This document shows, one piece after another, positions 1 to 33,684 of a DNA stretch of 33,884 nt (positions are counted from its first letter, which is position 1; each line of letters opens with the position of its first letter). Origin of the DNA: Rhodothermus sp. GTDB taxonomy: Bacteria; Bacteroidota; Rhodothermia; Rhodothermales; Rhodothermaceae. The DNA lies in assembly GCA_026989375.1 (NCBI GenBank), contig JALSJJ010000008.1:1-33884 (forward strand), in the 5' to 3' direction. The notes beneath the pieces were generated by a model, which saw only the letters and a list, made by a program, of their open reading frames with translations, ran no database searches and was not told the origin of the DNA. The position numbers and the translations under genes were made by a program.

Positions 1-321
1 GCTGCCACCCACGGGTGTGGATAACCTGTGGAAAACCAACCTTCAGAGGACCGTACGCCTCCAATCGTTTCCACACGGACCCTCAGCCCGCACACTCATG
101 TGCATTTTAACAAAACCACAACGTAATAAACCATTTGTAAACAAACATTTAAACAAAATGTCATATGTGGATAACTTGTGGAAAATCGGGGCCTTTGCTG
201 CATGAACCCGCTGTGATCAAGCGACGTGGAAGTTTGGGGTTGTGTATAACCTGTGCATAACTGTACGCTGAAGCCCGTAAAAGCCGCCCCAGAGGCGGCG
301 GTTGAAATTTTAGTCATCAAT
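1..321. promoter_or_regulatory. dnaA upstream region with three phased double DnaA boxes
   Basis: This non-coding stretch holds three copies of a 20-base double box. Positions 16-35 and 166-185 read TGTGGATAAC, one pyrimidine, then TGTGGAAAA. Positions 241-260 are a degenerate copy (TGTGTATAA then TGTGCATAA). TGTGGATAA is the reverse complement of the classic DnaA box TTATCCACA, so 16-24 and 166-174 are perfect boxes. The two half-boxes in each copy lie 11 bases apart, about one helical turn, and the copies are 150 and 75 bases apart. The interval at about 101-165 is AT-rich and could be an unwinding element. The array sits just before dnaA, so DnaA autoregulation, origin function or both are possible. 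Which one applies is inference. Confidence 0.75.
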
Positions 322-1830
322 ATGGAACGAACACCGGAGGCGGTCTGGGAAGCCTGTCTCGAAATTATTCGAGACAATGTAAATCGGCGGAGTTACAAGA
401 CCTGGTTTGAGCCAATCAAGCCAGTTAGCCTGAGTGAAGAGGGCGACCAGATCAAGCTGACGGTAGAACTGCCCAGCCGTTTCTACTACGAATGGCTGGA
501 GGAGCATTATTATAGCTTACTTCGGAAGACCATCACGAAAGTGCTGGGCCCCAAGGGCCGCCTGTTTTACAAGATTGTTATTGAAAAAGAAGATCCAGAA
601 AGTGGCTTCGAGGGCACCTCGGTCAATATGCCCGCTCATCCACCTGAAACGACGCCGCCCCCTCCTCGACGCCCTTCCCTGTCGCCACCACCCACAACCT
701 CATCCTCTTCGGGTACGCCGGTGGACCTCACTGAGCAGGCGCCATCCGTCCCTGCCAACCCTTTTGCCATTCCAGGAATTATTCGTAAGATTCAAGTTGA
801 TAGCCAGTTAGATCCCAGGTACACCTTTGAGCGCTTTATTGAAGGAGACTGCAACCGTCTGGCACGTAGTGCAGCCCTTGCTATTGCCCAGCAACCTGGA
901 ACAACCAGCTTTAATCCTTTTCTGGTCTATGGAGGCGTAGGACTGGGCAAAACACACTTGATTCAAGCTATTGGCAACTATGCCCGCCAGCATCGCACGG
1001 CCGAGACGATCCGCTACGTCTCAAGCGAACAGTTTACCAACGAATTCGTGCAGGCTATCCAGCACAACCGAATCAACGAGTTTTCCACGTTTTACCGCCA
1101 CATTGATCTATTAATCATTGATGATATTCAGTTCTTTGGTGGCAAAGAGAAAACGCAGGAAGTGTTTTTCCATATCTTCAATGCCCTGCATCAGGCCAAC
1201 AAACAGATTGTTCTGTCAGCCGATCGGCCGCCTAAGGACATTCCTGGGATTGAGGAGCGCCTGATGTCGCGGTTTCAGTGGGGCCTGATGGCCGATGTTC
1301 AACCACCGGACCTGGAAACGCGCATTGCCATCTTGCGTCGTAAGGCAGAAGATGAAGGCATCGCGCTGGACGACGACGTGGTCGAATTCATTGCCCAGCA
1401 TGTCAAGAGCAACTTCCGAGAGCTGGAAGGGGCCCTGCTTCGGCTGGTGGCACATGCCGCCTATCATCGCCGAGACATTGATCTTGAGTTAGCCCGTGAA
1501 GCGCTGCGTGACCTGATCAAAGAAAGCCGGGTAACCCTGACCATTGAACAGATTCAGCAACTTGTTTGCGAGTACTTTGGGATTGCGCCGGATCTGGTCC
1601 GTTCCAAGACGCGCAAGCGTGAGATCGTCCAGGCGCGCCAGGTGGCTATGTACTTCTGCAAGCAGTTTACGCAACACTCACTCAAATCCATCGGCCTGCA
1701 CTTTGGCGGGCGGGATCACTCAACGGTCATCCATGCCTGCCAGAGCGTAGAAAACCTGATGGAAACCGATCCGAGGTTTCGGGAGATTATAGAAGCGTTG
1801 CGCCACAAAATTTCGCTGCATAGCCGCTGA
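322..1830 (+). CDS. dnaA: Chromosomal replication initiator DnaA
   Basis: DnaA is the AAA+ protein that binds DnaA boxes, melts the origin and helps load DnaB. The 502-residue product shows all four domains. The N-terminal interaction domain starts with MERTPEAVWE. A Pro/Ser/Thr-rich linker follows at about residues 115-150. The ATPase has Walker A GGVGLGKT near residue 204 and Walker B LLIIDDIQF near 263. The C-terminal DNA-binding domain carries the signature GRDHSTVIHAC near 463. An in-frame GTG at 253 would add 23 residues, but it lies inside a DnaA-box copy and the extension does not resemble DnaA. The ATG at 322 is therefore chosen, although no good Shine-Dalgarno precedes it. dnaN follows after 55 bases. 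Confidence 0.97.
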   Translation: MERTPEAVWEACLEIIRDNVNRRSYKTWFEPIKPVSLSEEGDQIKLTVELPSRFYYEWLEEHYYSLLRKTITKVLGPKGRLFYKIVIEKEDPESGFEGTSVNMPAHPPETTPPPPRRPSLSPPPTTSSSSGTPVDLTEQAPSVPANPFAIPGIIRKIQVDSQLDPRYTFERFIEGDCNRLARSAALAIAQQPGTTSFNPFLVYGGVGLGKTHLIQAIGNYARQHRTAETIRYVSSEQFTNEFVQAIQHNRINEFSTFYRHIDLLIIDDIQFFGGKEKTQEVFFHIFNALHQANKQIVLSADRPPKDIPGIEERLMSRFQWGLMADVQPPDLETRIAILRRKAEDEGIALDDDVVEFIAQHVKSNFRELEGALLRLVAHAAYHRRDIDLELAREALRDLIKESRVTLTIEQIQQLVCEYFGIAPDLVRSKTRKREIVQARQVAMYFCKQFTQHSLKSIGLHFGGRDHSTVIHACQSVENLMETDPRFREIIEALRHKISLHSR

Positions 1831-24437: not shown

Positions 24438-26822
24438 ATGCCGTTGTTGCGAACCGCACCGCTCTTCTGGATAGCCCTCGCCCTCATCGCTGGCATTCTG
24501 CTGGCCGATGCTTGGAAGATTCCGCCTATATGGTGGCTACTCGGTGCAATGCTCATGATGCTGCTGACGCTCGGAGCGCTGCTTATTGCTTCCAGACAAC
24601 CTGGTACGCTCTGGTTGATCCCTTTTTTGCTGGGCGTGGTGTTTAGCAGTGCCAGCCGCTATCAGCTCTACATCCCCTCACCCCGCTCCTTTCCTGTGGA
24701 TACGCTGGCCATCGTTCTGGTTGACGTACAGGAAACGCTACCGGCCGCTTACGGCCTGCGCTTCGTGGGCCGTGTACAAATGATGCTGATTGGAGCAGAT
24801 ACCCTGTACAACCGCTCCTTACTGGATGTGCATCTACGGATTGATAGCCTGCCTGCATTCCATTGTAACCCCCGCATGCTCTTAGGAGGCCGACTGCTTC
24901 CGCCGAAAACGCCCCGTAACCCTGGACTACCGGATCGCACGGCGCAGTGGCGTCGGCGAGGGATCGCTGCACGATTGCTGGTGGATAACCCTCAGTTGAT
25001 ACAGATACTGGTCTCCAAACCCTGCACTGGCTTCGTGGCCCTCCGGAACGCGATTACATCGCTGCTGAAAGCATACATTCCCCGTCCCCAGGCCCGACAT
25101 GTAGTGCAGGCTCTCCTACTGGGCGACCGATCAGGTCTTTCTCCGGAAGTGCGCGATCAACTGGGCCGGGCGGGACTGGCGCATTTACTGGCGATTTCAG
25201 GCCTGCATGTCCTGCTGGTAGGTCTGATCCTCTACAACCTGCTACGCCCGTTACTGCTGCGTCTGGGATTGAGCTGGTGGGCGATGGAGTGGTCACGTAC
25301 GCTACTGACCCTGTTTGTGCTGAGCGGCTACGTGCTGTTGGCCGGTGCACCGGCCTCAGCCGTTCGTGCTCTGGTCATGACCGGCCTGTTTCTGGGCGCC
25401 ACCCTTTTCCAGGTCCCTTTGCATTCCATCAATGCCTTGGGAGCTGCCGCCCTGTTGCTTCTTCTGATCGATCCTGTTCAGCTCTTTGAGCCGGGCTTTC
25501 AGCTCTCGTTCGCGGCAGTGAGTGGTCTGCTGCTGGGATGGATGCCTTTACAGCGCCACCTGCCTGCCCTGCTGGTACGCCGTGCTATGGTACGCTATCT
25601 GGTCGGTACGTTTCTGGTTACGCTCACAGCTACGCTGGCCACAGCACCATTTGTGCTTTATCACTTCGGATACGTATCGCTGGCCGGTCTGCTGCTGAAC
25701 CTTCCAGGCATCCCCCTGGCTGCCGGATCACTGGCGGCTGGCCTGCTTACCGTGCTGAGCCTTCCCGTCAGCGAGACGTTGGCAGCATTGTTCGGTCACG
25801 CAGCCACGCTATGCGCCTCTCTGCTGCTACAGCTCGGCGATCAAGGCGTTCACCTGTTTCGTCCCATCATATTCCATCTGCCTGATCCACCGTGGTGGTT
25901 GCTTTTCGTACCGCTGGCGTTGCTGGGTCTGTTAAGCCCTTTCTCTCGCGTCCGCTACTGGTCTGGCGTTGTATTGCTCGGTTGCCTGAGTGCCGGATTA
26001 TGGCTCCGTCCACCTGCTACATCGCACCTGGATGTGCTATTTTTTGATATCGGTCACGGTGATGCTACGCTAATTCGCACCCCTGAAGGTCGGACGATCC
26101 TCATTGACACAGGGGGACGTCAGGGGGAAAACGCGGCTGCCCGTTGGAGTGTGCTGCCTTTTCTTCGACGCTATGGAATCAATCGAATTGATGCCGTTTT
26201 GCTGACGCACCCCGACGCTGATCATGCCGGTGGGCTTCCGCTGCTCCTCCGGCAGCTCGACGTAGGACGTGTGCTCCACAACGGAACAGCAGATTCTTCC
26301 GCACTCTCGCTGGAAATCGCTCACCTGCTTGACAGCCTTCAGCTTCCACAACGTGCACTACAGGCTGGCGATACGATTTACCTGGCACCTTCGCTGGTGC
26401 TGCAGGTGCTGGCCCCTACACCTGATGCTGATGCGGATGAGGCTTCCGATAACGAACGTTCAGTGGTACTTCGAATGGTCTTTGGTCAAACGCGCTGGCT
26501 ATTCCTGGGCGATGCCGAGCGTCGCCTGGAACGTCGGCTCGTGCGGGCTTATGGACCGCTGCTCCAGAGCGACGTGGTCAAGGTGGCCCACCATGGATCA
26601 CGCACCAGTAGCATCCCTGAGCTTGTCCATCAGGTAATTCCGGACCGGACCCATCCTACCTGGGCTGTGATCAGCAGCGGATGGCGGGCTGTCAGCGACA
26701 CAGTTCGTGCCCGCTGGGAACGCCAGGGCGCCCGGCTATGGATCACAGCCGAATCCGGTGCTCTCTGGCTTCGGAGTGACGGCCACCATATCTGGTCGGT
26801 CGCCTGGCGCCCGACTCAGTGA
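24438..26822 (+). CDS. comEC: ComEC/Rec2 DNA-uptake channel protein
   Basis: ComEC is the inner-membrane channel that brings single-stranded DNA into naturally competent cells. The 794-residue product has hydrophobic helices and an N-terminal OB-like DUF4131 part (about 1-200). The competence domain (about 215-520) holds LLLGDRSGLSPEVRDQLGRA and GLAHLLAISGLHVLLVGL. The C-terminal metallo-beta-lactamase-like domain (about 530-790) has DIGHGDATLI, HPDADHAGG near 590 and VAHHGSRTSS. All three parts and their metal motifs are intact, suggesting function. ATG 24438, with CAGGGG before it, is chosen over a frame open from 24201 that overlaps nusB. Its last 7 bases overlap the convergent uspA gene. 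Confidence 0.94.
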   Translation: MPLLRTAPLFWIALALIAGILLADAWKIPPIWWLLGAMLMMLLTLGALLIASRQPGTLWLIPFLLGVVFSSASRYQLYIPSPRSFPVDTLAIVLVDVQETLPAAYGLRFVGRVQMMLIGADTLYNRSLLDVHLRIDSLPAFHCNPRMLLGGRLLPPKTPRNPGLPDRTAQWRRRGIAARLLVDNPQLIQILVSKPCTGFVALRNAITSLLKAYIPRPQARHVVQALLLGDRSGLSPEVRDQLGRAGLAHLLAISGLHVLLVGLILYNLLRPLLLRLGLSWWAMEWSRTLLTLFVLSGYVLLAGAPASAVRALVMTGLFLGATLFQVPLHSINALGAAALLLLLIDPVQLFEPGFQLSFAAVSGLLLGWMPLQRHLPALLVRRAMVRYLVGTFLVTLTATLATAPFVLYHFGYVSLAGLLLNLPGIPLAAGSLAAGLLTVLSLPVSETLAALFGHAATLCASLLLQLGDQGVHLFRPIIFHLPDPPWWLLFVPLALLGLLSPFSRVRYWSGVVLLGCLSAGLWLRPPATSHLDVLFFDIGHGDATLIRTPEGRTILIDTGGRQGENAAARWSVLPFLRRYGINRIDAVLLTHPDADHAGGLPLLLRQLDVGRVLHNGTADSSALSLEIAHLLDSLQLPQRALQAGDTIYLAPSLVLQVLAPTPDADADEASDNERSVVLRMVFGQTRWLFLGDAERRLERRLVRAYGPLLQSDVVKVAHHGSRTSSIPELVHQVIPDRTHPTWAVISSGWRAVSDTVRARWERQGARLWITAESGALWLRSDGHHIWSVAWRPTQ

Positions 26823-27655
26823 TACAGGAACAGAGGTACGTTTGTCTTTTCAATAAGGGCTGTAGTAGAAGATCCAAAGAGCAGCTTTTTCAGTCCAGTG
26901 GTTGCATAGGCGCCGGCAACAATTAGGTCTGCGTGAATCTCGTTGGCAAACTGTACGATTGCTTCTTCTGGATTATTCCCTCTTCGGGCTGTTGTTGTCA
27001 CACGAAAGCCATGTTCCTGCAGGTATTCCTGTACCAGTGAAAGCATGAGGCGAACTTCGGCCTCGTTGCCATCGTAAACGGTCAACACTTCGATGCTCAC
27101 GTTCGTGCCAAAGGGCTTGAGCTGAGCAAAACGCTGCATGGTGCGAGCAGCCGTATCGCTACCATCATAGGCAATCAGTATGCGAGAGATTGGGCGATAT
27201 TCGCTCTCCACAATGAAAGAGGGTCCTACGCTTTCTCGAACGACCCGCACAAGCGTTTTGGTCTTTTCTTCCGGATGGCTGTAGAAGAAATGTGGCTCCT
27301 TTCCTACAACAAGCAGATCATGCACTTTCATGTCTTCGAGAATGCGCTGGAAGGGAACACCTTCGGCTACGGTGTTGCGGTGTCGGAGTCCTTCTTTTTC
27401 GGCGATGTCGTCAAACGCTTCGATCAACCGGCGTGCTGTAGTCCGCGCTTCTTCTGTTAGTTGATCGCGTAGCTTCTCCGCATAGTACATGCTACCGATA
27501 CCGCCGCCACGAGCGCTGGCTTCAATCTGGCCAGTATCCACAACAGCCAACCCGGTAACGCTGGCGTTGTGCTGATGGGCCAGCTCAGCGGCATACCGAA
27601 CAGCAACGTGGGTATCCGTATCCGGATCAAGTGCTACAAGAATGCGCCGAATCAT
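26816..27655 (-). CDS. Tandem universal stress protein (UspA)
   Basis: UspA-fold proteins bind nucleotides and are made under stress. The 279-residue product has two domains in tandem. One is at about 1-148 (MIRRILVALDPDTDTHVAVRYAAELA). The other is at about 157-279 (ISRILIAYDGSDTAARTMQRFA). The second ends with GAYATTGLKKLLFGSSTTAL, close to the ATP-binding G-2x-G-9x-G-S pattern but with Ala for the second Gly. The first lacks that motif. So ATP binding, if any, is by the C-terminal domain and possibly weak. It is a single gene whose 5' side faces the DnaA-box gap. Confidence 0.93.
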   Translation of the reverse strand: MIRRILVALDPDTDTHVAVRYAAELAHQHNASVTGLAVVDTGQIEASARGGGIGSMYYAEKLRDQLTEEARTTARRLIEAFDDIAEKEGLRHRNTVAEGVPFQRILEDMKVHDLLVVGKEPHFFYSHPEEKTKTLVRVVRESVGPSFIVESEYRPISRILIAYDGSDTAARTMQRFAQLKPFGTNVSIEVLTVYDGNEAEVRLMLSLVQEYLQEHGFRVTTTARRGNNPEEAIVQFANEIHADLIVAGAYATTGLKKLLFGSSTTALIEKTNVPLFLYH

Positions 27656-28146
27656 GGGTGTCTGAACAGCTTGGGTTCTGGCTATGCGCTAAAAGTACGA
27701 GTTTTCTGGAGCCTGTACAAATCTAAGGCTACGAGTACCTGAACGGTTGATTGTAACAAAGTAAGTTTAAAAAGTTGTTGTACTGGATAGTAAGTCGATG
27801 TGGAAATGTGAATGGCGAAGTTATACACGTCGAGAAGAAGCGCTGTGGAAAAAAGGCAGGGGTATTCCACAGAGTTGCACACAGCCGCGAGGTAACAGAA
27901 GCGTCGCATCAGGATGCAAACGGGACGATTTTGAACTGTTTATCCACATTTCCACGATAATACACAGATAACGGATTGATTTCAGCGTCTCATTATCCAC
28001 CGTTGTCCACAATGTGGAAAGATGGGGATAAAGTGGGCAAAGCAAGGAAAGTTATCCACAGGGACGTCCGGGGTAGATTTTTTCCCCGAAATATCCCCGC
28101 GCTTATCCCCGGCTTTCCACAGGTAATCCACGGTATCGACAAAAAC
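27656..28146. other. DnaA-box-rich non-coding region, candidate replication origin
   Basis: This 491-base gap has no gene I can support. Perfect DnaA boxes TTATCCACA lie at 27940-27948 and 28052-28060. One-mismatch boxes are at 27821-27829 (TTATACACG, counting M at position 5), 27993-28001 (TTATCCACC) and 28003-28011 (TTGTCCACA). Weaker ones are TGTGGAAAA at 27844-27852, TGTGGAAAG at 28013-28021, TTATCCCCG at 28103-28111 and TAATCCACG at 28124-28132. An AT-rich stretch at about 27749-27800 could be the unwinding element. Most full boxes share one orientation. Together with the apparent change of base skew at this point, this suggests oriC. It is flanked by leftward uspA and by the 3' end of leftward pgi. 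Confidence 0.65.
27718..27725 (-). promoter_or_regulatory. TAnnTTTG element, possible promoter of the UspA gene
   Basis: Read on the minus strand this is TAGATTTG, an exact match to the Bacteroidota -7 consensus TAnnTTTG, 62 bases before the UspA start. No clear TTTG at the -33 position is seen, so the assignment is weak. Confidence 0.3.
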
Positions 28147-29442
28147 TCACGATTTACCCAATAGACGGTACATTTCGCGCTTGTAAGCCTCAACGCCGGG
28201 CTGGTCGAAGGGGTTGATGCCGAGGAGGTAGCCGCTGACGGCCACGGCATGCATGAAGAAGTAAAGACAGGCCCCCAGTGGGCCCGGAGCCAGGCGTTCG
28301 AGCCATACGGTGGAGACAGGGACGCCGCCATTGGCGTGGGCTTTGCGCGTGCCCTCATAAGCGTTACGGTTCACTTCCTGGAAGGTGCATCCGGCCAGGT
28401 AAGCAAGCCCATCAAGGTCGTCGCCCGTATCCGGGATCGTCAGCAGCTCGGGTTCGCGTTCCACCATAAGAAAGGTTTCGATCAGGTGGCGGCGCCCTTC
28501 CTGCACGTACTGTCCCAGGGAGTGCAGATCGGTGGTGTACTGGATGGCATCGGGGTAGAGTCCTTTGCCGGCCTTGCCTTCACTTTCGCCGAAGAGCTGT
28601 TGCCACCAGGCGCCGAGGCCACTCAGACGTGGCTCGAAGACAGCCAGCAGTTCGAGGGCATAGCCGCGTTCATGAAAGAGATAGCGCAGGGCAGCATAAT
28701 CAAGAGCTGGATTGTCCCGGGTGTCTTGCAGGCGCTCGCACATCTCGACGGCTCCGTAGAAGAGGGAGCGAATGTCGATACCGGCTACGGCAATGGGGAG
28801 CAATCCGACTGGCGTCAGTACGGAGAAGCGCCCGCCGACGCCGGGTGGGATAGCGTAGCGTCGGTAGCCCAAGGATCGGGCCATGTCGTGCAGCCGTCCA
28901 CGGGCTGGATCGGTGGTGACAATGATGCGGCGGGCGGCGTCCGGAAAGCGGGCTTCCAGCCAGGGACGCAGCACGCGAAAAGCCAGCATGGTTTCCAGCG
29001 TGGTGCCACTCTTGGAGATGACGTTGAGGTACACTGATTTGCCTTCCAAGTAGGTCAGCAACTCTTTCAGATAGCGGCCACTTAGATGATGGCCGGCAAA
29101 GAGAACTTCCGGCGTGAGAGGACGACCGGTTTCGGTATCAACAGGGGGACGAAATTGGGGACTCAACGCTTCAATGACAGCCCAGGCGCCGAGGTAGGAG
29201 CCGCCAATGCCGAGGCACAGGAAAACGTCGGCCTGCTCGCGGATTTCAGCAGCCGTGGCATCCAAGTCTTCCAGCAGGGCATCGTCCGGCTCCAGCAACA
29301 GGTCACGCCAACCCAGCATTTCATGGCCGGGGCCTGTACGTTCCAGTAGCATGCGATGGGCAGCTTCGGTCTGGGGACGGAGGGCGTCCAGGTCGTGCGC
29401 CTCCAGAAAAGACAGGGCTGTGCTGAAGTCGTAGCGTATCAT
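28147..29442 (-). CDS. pgi: Glucose-6-phosphate isomerase
   Basis: Pgi interconverts glucose-6-phosphate and fructose-6-phosphate in glycolysis and gluconeogenesis. The 431-residue product belongs to the short bacterial type (about 430-450 residues, as in Bacillus). It shows CLGIGGSYLGAWAVIEAL near 75-92, VISKSGTTLETMLAFR near 141, GGRFSVLTPVGLLPIA near 203 and the catalytic-region GESEGKAGKG. The C-terminal GINPFDQPGVEAYKREMY holds the active-site lysine. The start at 29442 is clear. It is divergent from moeA by 74 bases, and its 3' end borders the candidate origin. Confidence 0.96.
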   Translation of the reverse strand: MIRYDFSTALSFLEAHDLDALRPQTEAAHRMLLERTGPGHEMLGWRDLLLEPDDALLEDLDATAAEIREQADVFLCLGIGGSYLGAWAVIEALSPQFRPPVDTETGRPLTPEVLFAGHHLSGRYLKELLTYLEGKSVYLNVISKSGTTLETMLAFRVLRPWLEARFPDAARRIIVTTDPARGRLHDMARSLGYRRYAIPPGVGGRFSVLTPVGLLPIAVAGIDIRSLFYGAVEMCERLQDTRDNPALDYAALRYLFHERGYALELLAVFEPRLSGLGAWWQQLFGESEGKAGKGLYPDAIQYTTDLHSLGQYVQEGRRHLIETFLMVEREPELLTIPDTGDDLDGLAYLAGCTFQEVNRNAYEGTRKAHANGGVPVSTVWLERLAPGPLGACLYFFMHAVAVSGYLLGINPFDQPGVEAYKREMYRLLGKS

Positions 29443-31414: not shown

Positions 31415-32092
31415 GTGGAAGTTGTAAGTCCTCTGCTTTTACCCGACGCGGCTCCACAGGTATTTGTGGTCTGTCTGTCGTCGGCTGACCTGCCTGACCA
31501 ATTACCTCAGGGCATTCGACTCTGGGAGACGCCAGCGCAGGCGAGGGCAGCGTGTGGAGCTGGTCGGTTGTGGGTGATTGCGGTGCCTCCTGGTGGGGTT
31601 TTGTTTGATGGGGAAAGCTGGCGGCTCCAGCATTCTATACCAACCACCGCCATTTTAAACGGAAACCCTTACCGCCTGCCAATCACGGTCCCGGCCGCTG
31701 GGGGCGTGGTCGTGCGTGGCGGAGAAACGCCTGAAGTGCTGCTCATTCACCGGCGGGGCCACTGGGATCTTCCTAAGGGCAAGTGTGATCCGGGCGAGGC
31801 GCCCGAAGCCTGCGCGCTTCGGGAGGTGAGCGAGGAGCTGGGCGTTCCCCCCGAGGCGCTGCAGCTTCGGGCGCCGCTGGGACGCACGGTGCACGCCTAC
31901 CCCCTCGACCATCGCTATGCTGTCAAGCCCACCTGGTGGTTTCTCATGGAGACCACCGCCCCAACGTTCGCGCCACAGGAAGCGGAAGCCATTCAGGAGG
32001 TCCGCTGGTTTCCCCTGGAGGAAGCCCTCCGTCGGGTAACCTATCCTACCCTCCAGGCGTTGCTGCAGCGTCTGCGCACCCGTTGCTGTTAG
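31415..32092 (+). CDS. Nudix hydrolase with an N-terminal extension
   Basis: Nudix enzymes cleave nucleoside diphosphates linked to another group. The 225-residue product carries a complete Nudix box at 122-144 (GKCDPGEAPEACALREVSEE followed by LGV) within a domain at about 92-222. WDLPKGK just before it is typical of the Ap4A/diphosphoinositol-like subgroup. Residues 1-90 are an added part with no match I recognise (VFVVCLSSADLPDQLPQGIR, RLWVIAVPPGGVLFDG). The start is GTG 31415. It is three bases after the lipoprotein gene and ends 8 bases before the convergent amidohydrolase gene. Confidence 0.88.
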   Translation: MEVVSPLLLPDAAPQVFVVCLSSADLPDQLPQGIRLWETPAQARAACGAGRLWVIAVPPGGVLFDGESWRLQHSIPTTAILNGNPYRLPITVPAAGGVVVRGGETPEVLLIHRRGHWDLPKGKCDPGEAPEACALREVSEELGVPPEALQLRAPLGRTVHAYPLDHRYAVKPTWWFLMETTAPTFAPQEAEAIQEVRWFPLEEALRRVTYPTLQALLQRLRTRCC

Positions 32093-32100
32093 GGGCGGGC

Positions 32101-33684
32101 TCAGGGCTTCTGGGAAGCGGCTGCTTCCTGCTGTTTGGCTTCTTCCACCATGCGGGCCACATCGGCCAGCAGTTGTTTGGCATCGTAGATGATGCCGTCC
32201 TTGATTGTGTAGAGAATGCCCCGGGTGCGCTCGACCTCGTTTTGTTCGTTAACCCGGATCCAGCCGGTACCGTAGAGCACCTTGAAGTTTTCCAGCGGAT
32301 TCTCGGCCACGATGATCAGGTCGGCCAGCTTGCCGGGCGCCACCTGTCCAATTTCTGGATTGCCCAGGGCTTCGGCGCCGTAGAGCGTGGCCGAGCGGAT
32401 GACTTCCAGGGGATGAAAGCCGGCTTCCTGCAGCAGCTCCAGCTCCCGGATGTACCCGAAGCCATAAAGTTTGAAGATGAAGCCCGAATCCGATCCCGTA
32501 ACGATGCGTCCGCCGCGGTTTTTGTATTCGTTGAGCCACTGCATCCACCGCTGATAGTTGCGTTTCCAGGCGATTTCGTCGGCGGTCGTCCAGTAGAACC
32601 AGTAGGATCCGTGCGCCTTGCGATTGGGTTGGAAGAATTTCCAGAGGGAGGGGAGCGTGTAGCGGTCGTGCCATTCAGCGCGCATGGCCCGCATCAGATC
32701 GCGGCTGGCTTCATAGATGGTGAGCGTGGGGCTAAAGGTGAAATCCAGCCGCAGAAACTCCTCCATGACTTCTTCCCATTTCGGGCTGCCCGGCGGGGCC
32801 GCCTGAAGCCAGAGCCGGCCGGCCTGCCCGAAGCGGTGCTGTTCGTTCTGATAGTTGTAATCTACGGGAAAGTCCTGCACGGTGCGGTCGACAAACAGTG
32901 CTTCCGGGAGGCCGTACCAGTGTTCCAGCGTAGTGAGGCCCAGCCGGGCGGCATCCAGCGCGTTCATGCGGGCCACGCCCATCTGGTCGAGGTGGGCGGC
33001 CGTACCCAGACCCAGCTTGCGGGCTTCATCGATGGTGGCCGCCATGATGTCCGGAGGCAGAGCCGGCAGTTTGAGGCCGTCCGCTCCCTGCTGGGCCACC
33101 TGGCGCACCCAGGCTCGGGCCGCTTCAGGGGTGATCAGGGGTTCCTTGGCGCCCTGTCCAAAGCGGACGTAGGCATAGATCCGAGGGGCCACAATGCGGT
33201 TTTCGGCGCTACGCCGCTTGTGCGCCAGCGTCCATTCCAGCCCATTGCCGGAGCCCGGATCGCGAATCGTCGTGATGCCATGGGCCATCCAGAGCTTGAA
33301 GACGTACTCGGCCGGGGTACCCTGGGCAACGCCTCCGATGTGCGCATGCATATCGATGAAGCCGGGAAGCACATACATGCCGTGGGCGTCCAGCTCATAG
33401 GTAGCGTCTTTGGGGCGCCGCGCTTCTTCGATAGGGACGCCCGGATAGCCCACGCGCACGATTTCTTTGATTCGGTTCTTTTCGATGACAATGTCTACCG
33501 GACCAATCGGCGGAGCACCGGTGCCGTCGATCAGGGTAGCTCCCCGGATAATCAGCCGATCAAAAGGGCCGATGCCTTCATCCGGCCGACGGTCCGGAGC
33601 CGGGGGAATGGAGCGGGGTTGCGCCAGCAAAAGTCCGGGGCTGGTTCCCAGTAGGATCAGCAGACCAATCCATAGGGATCTCAT
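32101..33684 (-). CDS. Secreted amidohydrolase (metal-dependent hydrolase)
   Basis: The 527-residue product starts with a signal peptide (MRSLWIGLLILLGTSPGLLLAQ), so it acts outside the cytoplasm. The mature enzyme is a TIM-barrel amidohydrolase. The metal ligands H113 and H115 lie in FIDMHAHIGG. K205 in GLKLP, H231 in AAHLDQ, H255 in LEHWYG and D399 in TGSDSG fit the remaining active-site positions. The start and end form the beta-sandwich (LIIRGATLIDGTG; GKLADLIIVAENPLENF). Subgroup members act on peptides such as Xaa-Pro dipeptides, or on cyclic amides and carbamates. The substrate here is unknown. The tail is Glu/Ala/Gln-rich. Confidence 0.9.
   Translation of the reverse strand: MRSLWIGLLILLGTSPGLLLAQPRSIPPAPDRRPDEGIGPFDRLIIRGATLIDGTGAPPIGPVDIVIEKNRIKEIVRVGYPGVPIEEARRPKDATYELDAHGMYVLPGFIDMHAHIGGVAQGTPAEYVFKLWMAHGITTIRDPGSGNGLEWTLAHKRRSAENRIVAPRIYAYVRFGQGAKEPLITPEAARAWVRQVAQQGADGLKLPALPPDIMAATIDEARKLGLGTAAHLDQMGVARMNALDAARLGLTTLEHWYGLPEALFVDRTVQDFPVDYNYQNEQHRFGQAGRLWLQAAPPGSPKWEEVMEEFLRLDFTFSPTLTIYEASRDLMRAMRAEWHDRYTLPSLWKFFQPNRKAHGSYWFYWTTADEIAWKRNYQRWMQWLNEYKNRGGRIVTGSDSGFIFKLYGFGYIRELELLQEAGFHPLEVIRSATLYGAEALGNPEIGQVAPGKLADLIIVAENPLENFKVLYGTGWIRVNEQNEVERTRGILYTIKDGIIYDAKQLLADVARMVEEAKQQEAAASQKP

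Follow-up and report, generated by a model that had tools for sequence, protein, structure and literature searches.

In many bacteria the replication origin lies upstream of dnaA. The described systems closest to the locus reported here are B. subtilis incC and C. difficile oriC2 (basal unwinding system, BUS), in which an array of strong and weak DnaA boxes is combined with tandem boxes, a short GC-rich spacer, DnaA-trios and an AT-rich element; the published BUS search asks for a DnaA box with no more than 2 mismatches, a spacer of at most 16 bp and at least 3 DnaA-trios. Origins away from dnaA are also on record: DoriC 10 lists the oriC of Synechococcus lividus as distant from dnaA/dnaN, with its box cluster at a skew extreme (PMC6323995). 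Box arrays also occur in dnaA promoters, where they serve autoregulation, in E. coli, in B. subtilis and in P. putida, which has 12 boxes (PMC8203912).

The locus described here shares with incC and oriC2 both the mixed array of boxes and the candidate unwinding elements, in the published order and orientation. It differs from them in its place between uspA and pgi, some 28 kb away from dnaA, and in showing two clear trios where many of its relatives have at least three. Like the origin of S. lividus, it combines a cluster of boxes with an extreme of the skew at a distance from dnaA; unlike that origin, it holds a position that is conserved throughout the Rhodothermales together with comEC, uspA and pgi.

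The window, i.e. the whole stretch of DNA analysed (33,884 nucleotides), is the entire contig 8 of a 3.07 Mb draft in 257 contigs from the genus Rhodothermus. Its left end is occupied by dnaA, followed by dnaN. The initial annotation had pointed to a gene-free gap between a UspA-family gene and pgi as a likely origin about 28 kb from dnaA. The flanking genes and the distance were confirmed, and the gap is indeed free of genes: the overlapping ORFs of at least 30 aa resemble chance frames, and the longest of them (121 aa) enters pgi in a different frame. The proposal itself was supported by the skew minimum, by the conservation of the boxes and by the recurrence of the cluster, and we regard the gap as almost certainly the DnaA-dependent oriC of this chromosome, of a common type though unusually placed, and probably working by the usual mechanism.

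26816 to 27655, minus strand: UspA-family gene, left of the gap.
27656 to 28146, no strand: candidate oriC, the gene-free uspA-pgi gap (box cluster, skew turn, conservation).
28147 to 29442, minus strand: pgi, glucose-6-phosphate isomerase, right of the gap.

The sites of the gap, its stability, its conservation and its skew turn were observed as follows. Within the gap there are 15 DnaA boxes at up to two mismatches (2 perfect, 4 with one mismatch and 9 with two), compared with 0.85 per 491 bases in the remaining window. At up to one mismatch the whole window contains 16 boxes, against 4.2 +/- 2.2 in shuffled sequences, and 0 of 100 shuffles reached 16. Perfect boxes number 14 in the whole genome: four are on the contig of the window, two in the gap and two upstream of dnaA, and the remaining 10 occur as a single box on each of 10 contigs.

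27821 to 27829, plus strand: weak DnaA box TTATACACG, 2 mismatches.
27844 to 27852, minus strand: DnaA box TTTTCCACA, 1 mismatch; several congeners have TTATCCACA.
27863 to 27871, plus strand: weak DnaA box TATTCCACA, 2 mismatches; TATTCCAC is genus-invariant.
27940 to 27948, plus strand: perfect DnaA box.
27993 to 28011, plus strand: DnaA box pair TTATCCACC / TTGTCCACA, spaced 10 bp, one mismatch each (27993, 28003).
28013 to 28031, minus strand: DnaA boxes CTTTCCACA (2 mismatches) and TTATCCCCA (1 mismatch, 28023-28031).
28052 to 28060, plus strand: perfect DnaA box.
28103 to 28141, plus strand: four weak boxes in a run, TTATCCCCG, CTTTCCACA, TAATCCACG and GTATCGACA.

Both perfect boxes were found where the initial annotation had placed them. 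Two of its three near-perfect boxes, at 27993 and 28003, have a single mismatch; for the third, at 27821, the label was generous, and this box is one of the nine two-mismatch boxes. The minus-strand one-mismatch boxes at 27844-27852 and 28023-28031 were absent from its list. The AT-rich stretch that it had seen at 27749-27800 is real, with 31% GC against 58% in the window. Alignment of the genus showed that invariant columns make up 66% of positions in boxes and 34% outside them (P = 3e-10); box positions are kept in the Rhodothermus genomes and, in the run of weak boxes, TTATCCCC..TCCACAGG.AATCCAC is kept across the genus.

To the left of these boxes, nearest-neighbour stability calculations placed the segment 27747-27796 among the least stable 0.13% of 50-mers of the window. 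It adjoins a trio-spacer-box module that the initial annotation had not noticed, reading TAGTAA - GTCGA - TGTGGAAAT - GTGAATGGC on the plus strand (27788-27816).

27747 to 27796, no strand: probable DNA unwinding element, 28% GC, with a genus-conserved core TTTAAAAA at 27766 (nearest-neighbour stability, alignment).
27788 to 27793, plus strand: two DnaA-trio triplets, TAG TAA (3'-GAT-AAT-5' read from the boxes).
27794 to 27798, plus strand: spacer GTCGA, from the trios to the tandem boxes.
27799 to 27816, minus strand: tandem DnaA boxes, on the plus strand TGTGGAAAT then GTGAATGGC; congeners have TGTGGAAATGTGGAT.

A strict pattern for this module (at least 2 TAR triplets, 0-6 bases, TGTGGR) has its sole match in the whole window at 27788. 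Taken alone, the module of the window is not significant (two clear trios, P = 0.115), so that it is the relatives that carry the argument. Many of them have 3 or 4 TAG triplets at the matching trio position, and relatives show there the box, spacer and trios for which the published BUS search asks. They display the module more clearly than the window does: TAGTAGTAGTAG-GATC-TGTGGAAATGTGGACAAC in G016, TAGTAGTAG-GGCC-TGTGGAAATGTGGATAGC in G012, TAGTAGTAG-GGGC-TGTGGATATGTGAACAAG in G038 and TAATAATAA-GGC-TGTGGATAAGTGGATAAC in G069. The strict pattern matched the gap in 7 of 11 relatives as well as in the window, with no second match within those spans, and gave 0 matches in 1.94 Mb of other sequence from the same genomes. 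In family f4 (loci L031, L033, L036, L039 and L167 of genomes G053, G091, G033, G086 and G058) the module is kept and canonical boxes number 1-2, which suggests a diverged box sequence in that family.

Upstream of dnaA there is a second cluster, missed by the initial annotation, with six boxes at up to one mismatch in 245 bases.

16 to 260, minus strand: second DnaA-box cluster upstream of dnaA, three pairs spaced 11 bp.

This cluster could be the true origin, in which case the uspA-pgi cluster would titrate DnaA or have a regulatory role, like datA or DARS. In favour of this alternative, the cluster at dnaA contains an AT-rich stretch (124-173, 22% GC) whose stability is one of the lowest in the window, and the boxes, mostly on the minus strand, are conserved in the genus (5-6) and also precede dnaA in a sister order (2-6). 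The GC skew was found to decide between the two clusters. In the window, (G-C) is negative until about 27 kb and positive beyond, with the best single break at 27.5 kb.

Because the assembly is a draft in 257 contigs, its own skew covers one contig, and the whole-chromosome skew was taken from a congener with a complete chromosome of 3,261,604 bases (G005), sampled as 40 stretches of 20 kb and a 200 kb contiguous span around zero. There, negative skew extends from 1.57 Mb to the chromosome end and on through dnaA (position 99), and the cumulative minimum, after which the skew is positive, lies at base 32,002, about 30 kb from dnaA. As pgi starts at 32,637, 0.6 kb away, the minimum adjoins the orthologous gap. 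The opposite turn is found at 1.49-1.57 Mb, roughly half a chromosome off. A two-level fit placed the break at 32.0 kb, with a bootstrap interval of 27.5-41 kb for the span from -40 to +80 kb and of 25-56 kb for the span from -80 to +120 kb; dnaA is outside both intervals. The stretch at 170-190 kb of this chromosome (L109) has 46% GC compared with about 65% elsewhere and may have been acquired; a check of this low-GC sample revealed no CRISPR-like array.

In the Salinibacter-like genome G018 (3,551,823 bases), the skew minimum of the first 80 kb falls at about 16 kb, not at dnaA, and a nine-box cluster adjoins comEC at about 13 kb. In 40 kb spans from 11 relatives, the cumulative minimum was no more than 1 kb from the pgi stop in seven and 1.6-9.6 kb away in four; these spans were centred on the gap, so that the result is support and not independent proof. 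The whole-chromosome skew of G016 is noisy, with a sign change at about 2.39-2.6 Mb that is compatible with its pgi gap at 2.394 Mb without being sharp.

The dnaA-upstream cluster was rejected as the main origin on the skew, and that it should be the true origin is very unlikely. It also has no match to the strict trio-spacer-box pattern. Moreover, in G136, a genome of the sister order, the skew becomes positive only in the interval from about 300 to 500 kb, and dnaA is located at 3.62 of 3.75 Mb, so that dnaA and its boxes sit several hundred kb from the skew minimum. The dnaA boxes thus appear to persist wherever the origin lies, which fits autocontrol of dnaA or titration. The most probable role of the cluster at 16-260 is to control dnaA or to titrate DnaA, and not to serve as an origin. 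It resembles the known dnaA promoter arrays (PMC8203912) in being directly upstream of dnaA and differs from them in that its boxes are paired at 11 bp and the main origin is elsewhere; a regulatory role here is putative. The genus retains the paired 11 bp geometry, and a sister order of the class retains it in part.

The dnaA ORF was listed from a GTG at 253, and the relatives align from residue 23-24 on (window 253-330). Translation therefore probably starts at the ATG at 322, and the last pair of boxes would then precede the gene. Several Rhodothermales (loci L091, L094, L095, L096 and L097 of genomes G058, G018, G049, G060 and G033) have, far from the main dnaA, a second and diverged paralogue of DnaA with 48-56% identity to the query; Rhodothermus genomes have a single DnaA.

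The conservation of both clusters within the genus is also what would be expected of a two-part origin, in which both are needed, with DnaA looping over 28 kb, or in which the dnaA cluster controls the origin from a distance. There are precedents for this around dnaA, e.g. in H. pylori and C. difficile, but the known cases barely exceed the dnaA gene, whereas the distance from dnaA to the locus is 28 kb in the window and about 13 to >200 kb in relatives. The dnaA-upstream cluster is, in addition, thinner in other families (1-5 boxes). We consider such an origin highly improbable. A division of tasks between the two conserved regions, with the origin beside comEC/uspA/pgi and the paired-box array at dnaA as a remote DnaA-titrating or nucleotide-switching control, is a tentative and rather unlikely reading; were it true, the timing of initiation would depend on the copy number of the second locus.

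The cluster was also followed among relatives. Downstream of pgi, at least 4 boxes (up to one mismatch) per 800 bases were found in 20 of 30 Rhodothermales loci, and upstream of pgi there were zero boxes in 29 of the 30; G033 and G058 have few canonical boxes at the locus. The cluster reappears at this locus throughout the order, as do the module and the local turn of the skew, and most related genera have the candidate origin in the corresponding place. The same holds for members without pgi there: the cluster still adjoins uspA in G069, G088 and G011 and comEC in G018, G028, G037 and G068, and in G022 and G032, where pgi is elsewhere, comEC is followed by 13-14 boxes. The uspA gene is retained next to the cluster in several families.

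With the gap located upstream of uspA, and DnaA able to act as a transcription factor (PMC8203912), the boxes might instead control uspA, and perhaps pgi, with no origin involved. This explanation is scarcely credible: the cluster persists at loci where no adjacent uspA was found and the neighbour is comEC or pgi, and the skew turn falls at the gap.

In 20 genomes from sister orders of the class, merely 0-2 boxes were found within 1500 bases downstream of pgi. A class-wide linkage of pgi and oriC is ruled out by these genomes, and the linkage belongs to the order.

The gap therefore carries the marks by which an oriC is recognized: an intergenic DnaA-box cluster, an adjoining AT-rich unwinding element (27747-27796), a skew minimum at the site (window 27.5 kb; congener 32,002) and a position and sites conserved among relatives, though absent beside pgi in sister orders. 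Adjacency to dnaA or dnaN, a usual but optional trait, is lacking; this does not disqualify the locus, as adjacency is non-defining and exceptions are documented.

By analogy with B. subtilis and C. difficile, DnaA binding, melting and helicase loading would all take place at the gap. DnaA would fill the array of strong and weak boxes (27799-28141), and an ATP-DnaA oligomer, starting at the tandem boxes (27799-27816), would grow leftwards onto the strand with the trios (27788-27793). The oligomer would melt the AT-rich segment at 27747-27796, onto which the helicase may then be loaded, and two forks would depart in opposing directions. In that event dnaA, on the plus strand left of the gap, would be transcribed towards the oncoming leftward fork, and likewise pgi, on the minus strand right of the gap, towards the rightward one.

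An origin of this kind is well known; what was not found in the literature searched is its position and its conservation throughout the order with comEC, uspA and pgi. No placement of the Rhodothermus or Salinibacter origin was found in that literature, which included little subscription literature, and DoriC may hold a prediction; the R. marinus genome paper mentions neither oriC nor dnaA. The numbering of complete Rhodothermus and Salinibacter chromosomes starts at dnaA, where the origin is readily presumed to lie.

The Rhodothermales are a deep-branching order, rich in extremophiles. Knowing exactly where the origin lies, with its unwinding module, gives those who build plasmids or map replication a candidate that can be tested. 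The order further contains a set of genomes whose oriC has the same neighbours at different distances from dnaA, useful material for understanding how origins and dnaA separate.
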